A DNA stretch of 64,000 nt. Origin: Nitrospira sp. ND1 (lineage in GTDB: Bacteria > Nitrospirota > Nitrospiria > Nitrospirales > Nitrospiraceae). The notes under the pieces were generated by a model. That model did no database searches and had not been told where the DNA came from. It saw only the letters and a list, made by a program, of their open reading frames with translations. Position numbers and translations under genes: made by a program. Where the stretch lies: contig NZ_FWEX01000005.1 in the NCBI RefSeq assembly GCF_900170025.1, positions 543,073-607,072 on the forward strand, written 5' to 3'. Every line of letters begins with the position of its first letter. The stretch's first letter is position 1. Shown in pieces: positions 12,163 to 15,887 of this stretch.

Positions 12163-13134
12163 TTACTTCGCCGGCAGCTCCCACGGCACCATCGGCATCA
12201 ACGGCGCCGGTTTGGCATCCGGTCCGGCCAGCAACACCGCGATGGCTCCTCGCAACGCGCCCGTGAGCGAATGGGTCACCAGCGGATAGGCGCCGGCAGA
12301 TTCCACCACCACGTCGAAGGTGGCCGCGCTGCCCGGTCCCACCACGTAGGTCTGCACGCCCTTCAAATTGTTGGCGGGATTGCCGCTTTCATAGACGTTG
12401 TCCCAAATCTCGCCGATCGGGTGAAACGAGGAAAACTCATTCGGGCCCGCATTGACGAAATAAATCCGCACCCGTTCTCCCGGCTTCGCATCCAATTTCC
12501 CGCCGCCCGTCACGAACGGGTGATACTTAAAAATACCGCCGTTGAACATCATGCCGTCGTACTTGCGATCGAACATCGCCTGCACGTCGTTCGGATTCTT
12601 GAAATACTCCGATTGCACCAAGACATATTCCCGATCCGCTTTCGGCCAGACCTTGGCGTCTTTGGGATCCACAATGATGGCTCCGAACATCCCGCGCGCG
12701 ACGTGCTGAATCATGGGCGGGGCGCCGCAATGGTAGAAGAACACCCCCGGCTTCTTCGCCGTGAACGAGAAGCTGTGCGTCTCGCCGGTATTGACGGCGC
12801 GGTAGTTCGTTAAGAAATCGACTTCTGCGGCATGGAAATCCATCGCATGGGGATTCTTGTTCGTGTCCGGGTTCGTCAAGGTGAAGTTGACGACATCGCC
12901 TTCCGTGACCCGTACCACCGGACCGGGAAACTGTCCGTTGAACGTCCAGGCGGCATACTTCTCTCCGCCTCCGTCGATCACGATGTCCGTCTCGACCGCC
13001 GTCATCTTGACCTCATGGGTTTTCGCCTCGGCCGACAGGCCCATGCCGGCCACCAACCCCAATGTCAGCCCCAACAACGACGCCGTCTTGCACCGACCGC
13101 GTCCGTGATTCCGTGCACCCTTCTGCTCTTGCAT
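12163..13134 (-). CDS. nirK: Copper-containing nitrite reductase (NirK type)
   Basis: 323 residues with a twin-cupredoxin layout. The signal peptide (LLGLTLGLVAGMGLSAEA) is followed by domain 1 with PHAMDFH (type 1/type 2 copper ligands and the catalytic Asp) and FFYHCGAPPMIQH (type 1 Cys, His, Met and a type 2 His). Domain 2 contains SSFHPIGE (catalytic/type 2 His) and LVTHSLTGALRGA. It should reduce nitrite to NO in the periplasm. A perfect AGGAGG ribosome site precedes ATG 13134. Just upstream lie a 24-bp palindrome suited to a Crp/Fnr-type activator and the gene for such a regulator. NirK is widespread in Nitrospira, where its physiological role is debated. Confidence 0.9.
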   Translation of the reverse strand: MQEQKGARNHGRGRCKTASLLGLTLGLVAGMGLSAEAKTHEVKMTAVETDIVIDGGGEKYAAWTFNGQFPGPVVRVTEGDVVNFTLTNPDTNKNPHAMDFHAAEVDFLTNYRAVNTGETHSFSFTAKKPGVFFYHCGAPPMIQHVARGMFGAIIVDPKDAKVWPKADREYVLVQSEYFKNPNDVQAMFDRKYDGMMFNGGIFKYHPFVTGGGKLDAKPGERVRIYFVNAGPNEFSSFHPIGEIWDNVYESGNPANNLKGVQTYVVGPGSAATFDVVVESAGAYPLVTHSLTGALRGAIAVLLAGPDAKPAPLMPMVPWELPAK

Positions 13135-13245
13135 GCCTGCCTCCTATGAAATGGTCCTCGCGCTTTCGGTTCCGCTGCTCTCCGGCATCATCCGTAGCGC
13201 TCATATGACGCTCACTTCTTACACCATACGACAACGCATGCCTAC

Positions 13246-13269
13246 AAAATATGACATTTGTCATATTTT
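13246..13269 (-). promoter_or_regulatory. Perfect palindromic Crp/Fnr-family operator before nirK
   Basis: AAAATATGACA - TT - TGTCATATTTT is a perfect inverted repeat with 11-bp arms. Its core TGAC-N4-GTCA has the spacing of NNR/DNR/FNR sites. On the minus strand a TATGGT box (13227-13222) would place transcription start near 13215, with the palindrome centred about 42 bp upstream, the class II activator position. Confidence 0.7.
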
Positions 13270-13303
13270 AAAAGATTCTTCACTTGTGGTATCGAACAAG
13301 CGA

Positions 13304-14083
13304 TTACGTGGAAGCGAGCAGCTTCAAGCGAGGAAGATCACGGACCACAAGGCGGGAAGCGGTTCCGGAGACGAGCCCATCCCGTTTGAAACGCGCGAGG
13401 ATGCGGATGACCGTTTCGGTCGTGACGCCCACCATATCGGCCATATCCTGGCGGGTCAGGCGTACGGAGAGACGGATGCCTTGCGGCTCCCGCAGCCCAG
13501 TTCGCTCGGCAAGACTGGCCAACAACGAGGCCAGCCGTTGATCGGCCCGGTCCAGCGCAAGGATCTTCGCCTTTTCCTGCGCTTCGTTCAACCGGTGCCC
13601 CAGGTGACGGATCACTTCCATGGCGGCATCCGGATTCCGGCGCAGCATGTCGAAGTAGGCTTCTTTCCTCATCCGCAAGACGCTGACTTCGCTCATTGGC
13701 TGAGCGGTTCCTGGATGGTAAGCGCCGTCGAAGGTCGCCGCATCGCAACAAAACAGGTCACCCGGCATGAGCACTTTCAACATGCATTCCTTCCCGCCTG
13801 GGGAGGATTTAAAGCATTTGACCGTGCCTTCCTTGACGATGTGGAAGTATTCGGTGGGGTCCCCTTCGCGGAAGATGTACTGCCCCTTGCCGTAACGGGT
13901 TTCCATCATTTCGCCCAGGACCTTTTGGCGATCCTGGGCGCTGAGGATCTGGAGGAGGGGAATCTGATTTAACCCGGCAGGGAAGGCAGGGCCGGATTGT
14001 TCAGCGGGAGGCTGTTTTGACGATTTCTTGGGCAGCTTTGACAATCGAGCGTACTCCAATTCCAAAATGATCGACGAGTTCAT
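13304..14083 (-). CDS. Crp/Fnr-family transcriptional regulator
   Basis: About 259 residues. An N-terminal cyclic-nucleotide-binding-like beta-roll (YIFREGDPTEYFHIVKEGTVKCF; PGDLFCCDAA) is followed by a dimerisation helix and a C-terminal winged helix (RLTRQDMADMVGVTTETVIRILARF). It lacks the N-terminal Cys cluster of oxygen-sensing FNR, so it is not an Fe-S sensor of that kind; several scattered Cys are present in the beta-roll. The recognition helix has ETVIR where FNR has E-x-x-SR. It sits directly upstream of nirK and is the natural candidate to bind the palindrome there. ATG 14083 with a GGAAAG site overlaps the end of the transketolase gene by about 80 bp. Confidence 0.85.
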   Translation of the reverse strand: MNSSIILELEYARLSKLPKKSSKQPPAEQSGPAFPAGLNQIPLLQILSAQDRQKVLGEMMETRYGKGQYIFREGDPTEYFHIVKEGTVKCFKSSPGGKECMLKVLMPGDLFCCDAATFDGAYHPGTAQPMSEVSVLRMRKEAYFDMLRRNPDAAMEVIRHLGHRLNEAQEKAKILALDRADQRLASLLASLAERTGLREPQGIRLSVRLTRQDMADMVGVTTETVIRILARFKRDGLVSGTASRLVVRDLPRLKLLAST

Positions 14084-15887
14084 CCGGCTTTCCGCTGCGC
14101 GGAATCTCCCGCACGGCCAGTTTGTGCACCCGCACACCGTCCGATGCGAGCGCGCTCAAGACGGCATCGCCGATGCCTCCGTGCGCATAATGGTCCTCGA
14201 CCGTCAGGAATCGTCCGCCGGTGGCTCGCGCGCAATCGAGCAACGTCGCCCGATCCACCGGCACGATGCTGTAGAGGTCGACCACGCGGGTCGTGATACC
14301 GGCCGCCTTCAATTGATCGTGAGCTTTTAAGGCCTCGAACAACGTCACGCCGGCCGCCACGATCGTCAGCTGGTCGGCAACACTCTGTCGGACCACCTTG
14401 GAGCCTCCGATCTTAAACTGCTCATCCAGGCCATAAATCACCGGCGTCTTGGGCCGACCGGCGCGGAGATACACCATGCCCTTATGAGCGGCAGCCGCTT
14501 CCACCAGTTTGTACATCGAAAGCGCGTCGGACGGGTACAGCACCGTCACACCGGGCTGCGCCGACATCATCGCCAGGTCTTCGAGCCCCATCTGCGAGGG
14601 GCCGTCTTCACCGATGCTGACGCCGACGTGGGTCCCGACTAGTTTAATATTCGACTGGCTGATCGCCGCCATACGAATGAAGTCGTAGGCCCGCGTGAAG
14701 AACGCGGCAAAGGTCGCCACAAAGGGAATCTTTCCGCAGGCGGCGATACCGGCCGCAGCGCCCAGCATGTTCTGCTCCGCGATAAAGTTCTCCAGGAAGC
14801 GGCCCGGAAACCGTTTGCCGAACTTGTCGCTATAGGTGGAGTTCTTCACATCCGCATCCAGCGCGACCACCTGCGAGTTGGCCTCGCCGAGCGCCAGGAG
14901 GGCGGCTCCGAACGCTTCCCGCGTCGCCGCTGAATCACCGAGTTTGTAGGGCGGAGGCGCCATCGTCCCCTTGGCAGGGGCAGCAGCTTTGACGGCTGTC
15001 GGCATCGGAATCTGCGGTTGCGTCGAGCCGGGCTTGAGTTGCCGCGTCAACTCATCCAAGGCCTTCTGCGTTTCTTCACCCTTCTTCATGGGCTTTCCGT
15101 GCCATTCGGGATGATTCTCCATGAAAGAGATGCCGCGCCCCTTGAAGGTCTTCGCCAACAACACCGTCGGCCGCCCCTTGGTCCGCGCCGCTTCCTCAAA
15201 CGCTGCCACGAGGGCGCCGATATCGTGACCGTCCACCACAATGGCATGCCAGCCGAACCCGGCCCATCGGGCACGATAGGCCTCCATGTCATGCTGCAAC
15301 ATCGTGGGGTCGCTTTGCCCCAACCGGTTCACATCCACAATCGCGCACAAATTATCCAACGCCGCGTGCCGCGCCACTTCCGCCGCTTCCCAGACGGAGC
15401 CTTCGACGGATTCGCCATCGCCCATCAGCACATAGGTCCGGTAGTCGGTCTTGTCGATTGATTTGGCATTGAACGCGAGACCCACTCCGGCCGGCAATCC
15501 CTGCCCCAACGAACCGGTGGCCATATCCACGAATGAAAGGCGGGGAGTCGGATGGCCTTCGAGATCCGACCCGAGGGTGCGCAATTTGAGCAATTCCGAT
15601 GTGGGAAACAACCCGGCTTCCGCCCAGGCCGCATACAGCAGGGGCGCCGCATGGCCCTTCGAGAGGACGAATCGATCGCTATTGGGCAATTTCGGGTTTT
15701 TCGGGTCGTACCGCATCACCGAAAAGAACAGGACCGCGACGATGTCTGCGGCCGAACAACAGCTGGAGGGATGTCCGCTCCCGGCTTCAGTCGTCGCCTT
15801 CACACTGTCCATGCGAAGGTGCGTCGCCTTATTGGCCAAAGCGGTCAGAAGGTCAGGCGTGGCGGTAGAGGCAGCAGAGGCAGTCAT
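14001..15887 (-). CDS. tkt: Transketolase
   Basis: 628 residues, a single-chain transketolase. It has a thiamine-diphosphate/Mg2+ segment (VLMGDGESVEGSVWEAAEVA), an N-terminal GHPSSCCSAADIVAVLFF motif, a central pyrimidine-binding domain (FLENFIAEQNMLGAAAGIA) and a C-terminal domain. A Pro/Ala-rich linker lies around residues 290-315. It interconverts C3-C7 sugar phosphates in the pentose phosphate pathway. ATG 15887 follows AAAGGAT. The start of the crp/fnr gene is nested in its 3' end. Confidence 0.93.
   Translation of the reverse strand: MTASAASTATPDLLTALANKATHLRMDSVKATTEAGSGHPSSCCSAADIVAVLFFSVMRYDPKNPKLPNSDRFVLSKGHAAPLLYAAWAEAGLFPTSELLKLRTLGSDLEGHPTPRLSFVDMATGSLGQGLPAGVGLAFNAKSIDKTDYRTYVLMGDGESVEGSVWEAAEVARHAALDNLCAIVDVNRLGQSDPTMLQHDMEAYRARWAGFGWHAIVVDGHDIGALVAAFEEAARTKGRPTVLLAKTFKGRGISFMENHPEWHGKPMKKGEETQKALDELTRQLKPGSTQPQIPMPTAVKAAAPAKGTMAPPPYKLGDSAATREAFGAALLALGEANSQVVALDADVKNSTYSDKFGKRFPGRFLENFIAEQNMLGAAAGIAACGKIPFVATFAAFFTRAYDFIRMAAISQSNIKLVGTHVGVSIGEDGPSQMGLEDLAMMSAQPGVTVLYPSDALSMYKLVEAAAAHKGMVYLRAGRPKTPVIYGLDEQFKIGGSKVVRQSVADQLTIVAAGVTLFEALKAHDQLKAAGITTRVVDLYSIVPVDRATLLDCARATGGRFLTVEDHYAHGGIGDAVLSALASDGVRVHKLAVREIPRSGKPDELVDHFGIGVRSIVKAAQEIVKTASR

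Follow-up and report, generated by a model that had tools for sequence, protein, structure and literature searches.

Between a gene for a Crp/Fnr-type regulator and nirK, the gene for a copper nitrite reductase, the genome of Nitrospira sp. ND1 carries a short inverted repeat. The question raised by this locus is whether the repeat is an operator through which the neighbouring protein controls nirK and, if so, in which direction and in answer to which signal. NirK is described as widespread in Nitrospira with an undetermined role, and transcription of nirK in N. moscoviensis as constitutive under steady nitrite oxidation, in the portion of PMC6606698 consulted; this constitutive transcription speaks neither for nor against an operator. 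According to the part of PMC5596200 consulted, NirK activity had not been documented in Nitrospira at that time.

The nirK locus and its inverted repeat

The window, that is the whole stretch of 64,000 nucleotides that was analysed, belongs to an assembly of 4,454,928 bases in 6 contigs. On its minus strand the Crp/Fnr gene (13304-14083) is followed by the repeat (13246-13269) and then by nirK (12163-13134), the regulator gene being placed directly upstream of nirK. The product of nirK, the putative regulated gene, has 323 aa and was identified by its top family, TIGR02376 (E 2.6e-59, 201 bits, under the curated cut-off of 296), and by its closest solved chain, 4kns (E 4e-104), which we take to be the Nitrosomonas europaea enzyme. 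The protein contains PHAMDFH, FFYHCGAPPMIQH and THSLTG, presumably the expected type 1 and type 2 copper-ligand motifs.

The repeat, recognized by an inverted-repeat search and by its conservation and assigned to neither strand, reads AAAATATGACA-TT-TGTCATATTTT, with two arms of 11 nt (13246-13256 and 13259-13269) that are 100% complementary, a spacer of 2 nt and the core ATGAC-N4-GTCAT. It had been described from the sequence alone as a perfect 24-bp palindrome, which is right for the two exact 11-bp arms and not for the central TT, which is asymmetrical and leaves 22/24 bases symmetrical. In the 64-kb window this is the sole inverted repeat whose arms reach 11 bp or more with 0-8 bases between them; in 30 simulated first-order Markov sequences such repeats averaged 0.2 per 64 kb, with a maximum of 2. 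Since the symmetry by itself is only moderately unusual, the weight of the operator case rests on conservation in relatives, by which a chance palindrome was ruled out.

The repeat lies 34 bp past the stop codon of the regulator gene. Directly after this stop codon and ahead of the repeat a consensus scan found one intrinsic-terminator-like stem-loop (13280-13303, minus strand; 0.2 expected), and this putative terminator suggests that nirK has its own transcript. An AGGAGG ribosome-binding sequence (13140-13145, minus strand), read from the sequence, precedes the nirK ATG at 13134.

A -10-like hexamer, TATGGT (13228-13223, minus strand), follows the repeat, with its first base 29.5 bp from the repeat centre at 13257.5. 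With the usual placement of the -10 hexamer at -12 to -7, transcription would start near 13216 on the minus strand and the repeat would be centred at -41.5, which agrees with the sequence-only reading that it lies about 42 bp before the inferred start. A site at -41.5 or -42.5 without a -35 element is the usual activator arrangement of Crp/Fnr proteins. By a simple scan of 13120-13330 no sigma-70 promoter with both hexamers was found, which would be in keeping with an activator site that stands in for the -35 element. The same geometry was looked for at all regulator-bearing nirK loci described below, 46 loci with the window included, collapsed to 44 distinct promoters by identity of the site plus 30 bp. 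TATNNT stands at class II spacing in 41/44 of them, 29.5 bp from the centre in 26 and 30.5 bp in 15, and is absent anywhere from 17.5 to 43.5 bp from the centre in the remaining 3/44. Class II activation of nirK is therefore the likely mode, as it is favoured by the predicted geometry, and a protein at -41.5 may also act in repression.

Conservation of the site with the regulator gene

One genome per species was scanned, giving 117 confirmed nirK relatives, and the best 80 of the 117 (L009-L088) were analysed. An orthologous regulator gene (60-90% identity) lies upstream of nirK at 45 of these best 80 loci and the site is present at 45/45; with the window included, it occurs at 46/46 regulator-bearing loci with scores of 16-20 of 20 against the consensus AAAACATGAY-N4-RTCATGTTTT (20 scored positions). 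The 35 loci without the orthologous regulator include two (L053, L081) that were left out for insufficient upstream sequence, and at the 33/33 informative ones the site is absent (best score at most 14 of 20). The loci are related and these counts are not independent events. Moreover, the consensus was built from the scored sites themselves, so the scores are descriptive; independent support comes from the genome-wide co-occurrence and from the second nirK. The proposal of dedicated control, made on the ground that the repeat lies next to a Crp/Fnr gene, thus gains comparative support (45/45 with and 0/33 without the ortholog), and the case that had been named as speaking against it, a relative with the same regulator and no site before nirK, was not encountered among the 45. 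At one locus (L037) nirK is about 500 bp from the site, and regulator and site remain together.

Within the operator the left half is most constant at A, T, (G) and A and the right half at TCA; the central N4 varies among sites while TGA and TCA are invariant. C/T and G/A changes are found symmetrically at 7.5 bp, in 18% on each side. At three further loci (L169, L172, L173) the site is kept behind the regulator gene although a different gene lies downstream. In L169 and L173 it precedes ORFs resembling a CxxCH cytochrome and a cupredoxin/beta-propeller protein (families by eye), and in L172 the ORFs that follow are a carbonic-anhydrase-like one, a cytochrome and a nirK of 33% identity. A GC-rich 10-bp inverted repeat (GCCGGGGCTTTTAAGAAAGCCCCGGC-like) at about 1533 of L081, downstream of nirK, is probably a terminator.

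In the survey of the family, covering 147 genomes, a site was defined as at most one mismatch to AAAYATGAYNNNNRTCATRTTT and a regulator as a match with E up to 1e-40. The site was found in 74 genomes, the regulator in 83 and both in 73, an association with a Fisher p of about 1e-29 when kinship is ignored; the reversed pattern, used as control, gave 1 match in all 147 genomes. The sole site-bearing genome without a whole-genome regulator match, G082, has its site behind a 3' regulator fragment (L211). A regulator match without a site of at most one mismatch was obtained in 10/83 genomes: in G005, G014, G025 and G035 the regulator is followed by a weaker site that keeps the core, in G006, G077, G100 and G122 the regulator matches are broken or partial, and in G099 and G131 the match is a 42% paralog. 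Near the three degraded or partial copies of the regulator gene for which sequence could be inspected (L181, L185, L186) no site was found. Among the 75 sites listed, 65 sit 22-67 bp past the regulator gene, 8 lie before the second nirK and two are placed elsewhere.

These two are the site of G082 and a perfect site in G018. The latter (G018:C146:3606; L169, 2106-2129), a further perfect operator, is followed by a regulator gene at a distance of about 1 kb; it precedes neither nirK nor the second nirK, and a short ORF that looks transposase-like by eye is found nearby. In G036, neither a nirK nor a regulator gene was found in the stretch retrieved around a 2-mismatch site (L174).

The palindrome search elsewhere in the genome, which had been proposed as a check, returned 2 sites in the 4.45 Mb when no more than 2 mismatches were allowed. 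One is that of the window and the only other (L090, 1501-1522) lies on a different contig, C6, before a second nirK (nirK2, 1562-2572; 64% identical) which is unlinked to the regulator gene. When up to 3 mismatches were allowed three further matches appeared, against 2 for the reversed control, and since these are of the same order the idea of a broad regulon was set aside and no additional targets are proposed. N. moscoviensis (G002) has one site, and UBC2 (G003) has one perfect site and ten 3-mismatch matches.

The arrangement at nirK2 recurs in N. defluvii, where the site also precedes the second nirK. Genes of the nirK2 type (61-66% identity) are present in 14 genomes, 13 of which have enough upstream sequence, G021 being left out as only 85 bp are available. 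The core TGAY-N4-RTCA stands before nirK2 in 11/13, and all 11 core-bearing promoters have TATCCT or TATTCT 17-18 bp after the 24-mer, this TATNCT being at the same distance from the operator as the -10-like hexamer of nirK; the nirK2 promoters of G017 and G052 (2/13) are without the site. The same operator and the same spacing therefore occur before a paralog that is unlinked to the regulator gene. Third nirK genes, of 49% identity, exist in G004, G036 and G043.

The regulator and its proposed half-sites

The gene of the proposed operator-binding protein (13304-14083, minus strand), recognized by Pfam domains and predicted fold, encodes 259 aa from the ATG at 14083. Its ORF is open to a GTG at 14137, and the start codon is uncertain because the ORF overlaps the 3' end of an upstream transketolase-like ORF (14001-15887). 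The protein belongs to the Crp/Fnr superfamily, with PF00027 (cNMP_binding), PF13545 (HTH_Crp_2) and PF00325 above the Pfam cut-offs, and reaches none of the NCBIfam cut-offs for Crp/Fnr subfamilies, NF008365 (FNR) giving 78 bits against a curated cut-off of 228. The predicted structure has the full Crp/Fnr fold (mean pLDDT 82.6, residues 1-34 disordered), and this model matches CRP/GlxR with Z up to 26.9 and an rmsd of 2.0 over 224 residues; among the matches listed GlxR and mycobacterial CRP rank best, followed by FNR.

Cysteines occur in the 259-aa protein only at 90, 100, 112 and 113, and the N-terminal cysteine ligands of the E. coli-type FNR [4Fe-4S] cluster are absent. As the N-terminal stretch is without cysteine, a cluster of the FNR type is unlikely. 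The sequence-only reading had called the regulator one without an Fe-S cluster; this is probable for the FNR kind of cluster, and three other cysteines are invariant. Cys90, Cys112, Cys113 and His123 are present in 75/75 covering rows (69 distinct sequences), and the set was found in 0/4 of the more distant regulators. The C-C pair aligns to the glycine of the cyclic-nucleotide loop plus one inserted residue in the profile alignment with CRP/GlxR. We assume that Cys112 corresponds to the CooA heme ligand, a cysteine which would lie near the same loop as the C-C pair, and that Cys90 and Cys112 correspond to the CRP pocket. Signal sensing is perhaps exerted through Cys90, Cys112, Cys113 and His123.

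The predicted recognition helix of the regulator is T222-E223-T224-V225-I226-R227. In the group with ATGAY half-sites, 67 rows, the helix is [TVP]-E-T-x-[IT]-R, and in seven rows (five loci, two of them twice) with boxes of the TTGAY type it is E-E-T-x-V-R. The boxes of the sister family (L204-L206) are TTGATCCATATCAA or TTGATCCACATCAA. The changed predicted helix of the sister regulator clade goes with TTGAY sites. Because the TTGAY rows form one clade (100/97), this correlation counts as one evolutionary contrast. It agrees with the published pattern in which CRP positions 180 and 181 correlate with operator bases, as given in the consulted part of the motif survey (PMC1274295). Evidence against a simple helix rule comes from the nearest other family, surveyed in 8 genomes, where L201 and L202 (L-E-T-T-S-R) were found to lack a site over 420 bp from the regulator while L199 has only a degenerate one, and from three outgroup rows with V-E-T-A-I-R and no site. 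The other two of the five TTGAY-type loci, L066 and L068, carry a Crp/Fnr paralog of 42% identity, and ahead of nirK, at about -42.5, they have the box TTGACATAGATCAA. A decayed box, TTGACCCATATCAT, is retained in L076, which is without the regulator, and in L209 (G156) the gene of a 39% identical regulator that lacks the cysteines is followed by ATGACAAATATCAT within a few bases of the stop codon.

Known systems, alternative readings and meaning

Fnr genes upstream of nirK were noted in UW-LDO-01, N. moscoviensis, N. defluvii and OLB3, and control of nirK was suggested, in PMC5596200, the consulted part of which gives no operator or motif. UW-LDO-01, listed as comammox in the same source, differs from the present case, since its locus (L066) has the 42% paralog and a TTGAC-N4-ATCAA box. 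No description of the operator was found in the consulted parts of open-access main texts on Nitrospira nirK regulators, promoters, palindromes and Fnr or oxygen limitation.

Among Crp/Fnr proteins the structures of A. fischeri holo-FNR (5e44, 8qto) share the fold of the predicted model with Z of about 24 and 23-24% identity. In the FNR recognition helix, which also contains S212, E and R make operator contacts. Both E and R are kept in the Nitrospira regulator, whereas the equivalent of S212 is I or T in the Nitrospira regulators and the N-terminal stretch has no cysteine. CooA (2fmy, 2hkx) is a relative at 113 bits with the family profile; it is a CO sensor, while heme in the Nitrospira regulator is conjectural. 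HcpR1, with the site TTGACnnnnGTCAA and the targets hcp and frdX in the available part of the survey (PMC1274295), has the TGAC-N4-GTCA core in common with the Nitrospira operator but T before TGA where Nitrospira has A.

The sequence-only reading had given the core the geometry of DNR/NNR sites. The resemblance to DNR, NNR and NnrR is that of a Crp/Fnr protein, a TGA-type inverted repeat with FNR-type spacing and a nirK target, their consensus sequences being CTTGATnnnnATCAAG for DNR and ctTTGcgnnnncgCAAag for NnrR in the consulted part of PMC1274295. Neither was found at the Nitrospira sites: the half-site is AAACATGAY, with an AAAC flank, in 46/46 loci including the window (score at least 16/20), not TTGAT or TTGCG, and 'atgac' is absent from the consulted text of that survey. 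The spacing TGA-N6-TCA is common to the sites of many Crp/Fnr proteins. In PDB sequence searches with the regulator DNR came behind CRP/GlxR, FNR and CooA, with 67.8 bits against 81.1 for mycobacterial CRP in the single-sequence search and 105 against 129 with the family profile, and it was not among the 50 matches listed in either structure comparison; the three cysteines are invariant in the Nitrospira regulators, which differ in this from DNR, NNR and NnrR, and in having their gene directly beside nirK in nitrite oxidisers. The proposed link to NO-responsive DNR/NNR is therefore not supported. That the regulator nevertheless belongs in the DNR or NnrR subfamily of NO-responsive proteins, to which its place beside nirK would be suited, we consider distinctly unlikely. 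A Crp/Fnr protein of a Nitrospira MAG was assigned to NnrR by tree and a conserved tyrosine, and an NnrR matrix built on R. sphaeroides and enterobacteria served to predict its sites, as stated in the consulted part of PMC8510549; this may be another protein. Tentatively, the regulator might represent a distinct Nitrospirales subfamily of Crp/Fnr proteins that is dedicated to the periplasmic copper nitrite reductase, reads ATGAY and senses through an effector-pocket site of Cys90, Cys112, Cys113 and His123, where the sensor may be a thiolate heme, a centre of iron or copper(I), or thiols that become nitrosated; in the consulted part of the survey PMC1274295 the ATGAY half-site is not described for DNR, NnrR or HcpR.

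The remaining alternatives concern what binds the repeat and to what effect. The protein bound could act as a repressor, as it sits at the promoter and could block polymerase; the centre fixed at -41.5 or -42.5 from the -10-like element and the missing -35-like element make this unlikely. It is improbable that another Crp/Fnr paralog, such as an O2-sensing FNR-like protein, binds a site that lies behind the regulator gene by accident. The genome of the window yielded 8 first-look candidates for the regulator query, one of them past E 1e-40, other Crp/Fnr proteins may exist, and the spacing shared by the superfamily would fit them; but the site tracks this regulator even where another gene lies downstream, it is missing from nirK loci without the regulator and near its degraded genes, and the half-site type follows this regulator's helix. 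The least probable reading, with hardly any weight in our estimate, takes the repeat as an RNA hairpin or as the regulator gene's terminator. As RNA the stretch has a folding energy of -16.7 kcal/mol (z -3.56), the stem included, and it lies close behind the regulator stop; this reading was rejected, as the separate stem-loop at 13303-13280 comes first, the -10 spacing is fixed and the half-site bases follow the regulator and its helix, and the same site recurs before nirK2 with a variable N4 and constant TGA and TCA.

An operator of a dedicated nirK regulator is thus well supported by the comparative sequence data, and very probably 13246-13269 is the site at which the neighbouring Crp/Fnr protein controls nirK, likely as a class II activator. 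In this model the recognition helices of a regulator homodimer would enter the two half-sites, ATGAC/ATGAY; bound to a site centred at -41.5, upstream of TATGGT, the dimer would contact RNA polymerase in place of a -35 element. On the second, unlinked nirK the regulator would act in trans. The comparison shows the site, the regulator that occurs with it, the second site, the constant -10 spacing and the correlation of helix and half-site; that this protein binds the site, that it activates nirK and does not repress it, and that it responds to a signal are inferred. Candidate signals are low O2, NO, nitrite or copper, perhaps perceived via Cys90, Cys112, Cys113 and His123.

The neighbourhood of Fnr and nirK was already noted in the consulted part of PMC5596200. 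The operator provides a corrected search motif, and the NnrR matrix used in PMC8510549, as described in the part consulted, would be wrong if its protein is this regulator. A unit of one protein and two promoters with a defined operator offers a way to ask which signal switches nirK and what NirK is used for. If copper or NO should be that signal, NirK would serve nitrite oxidisers as a regulated enzyme of stress or detoxification and not of respiration.
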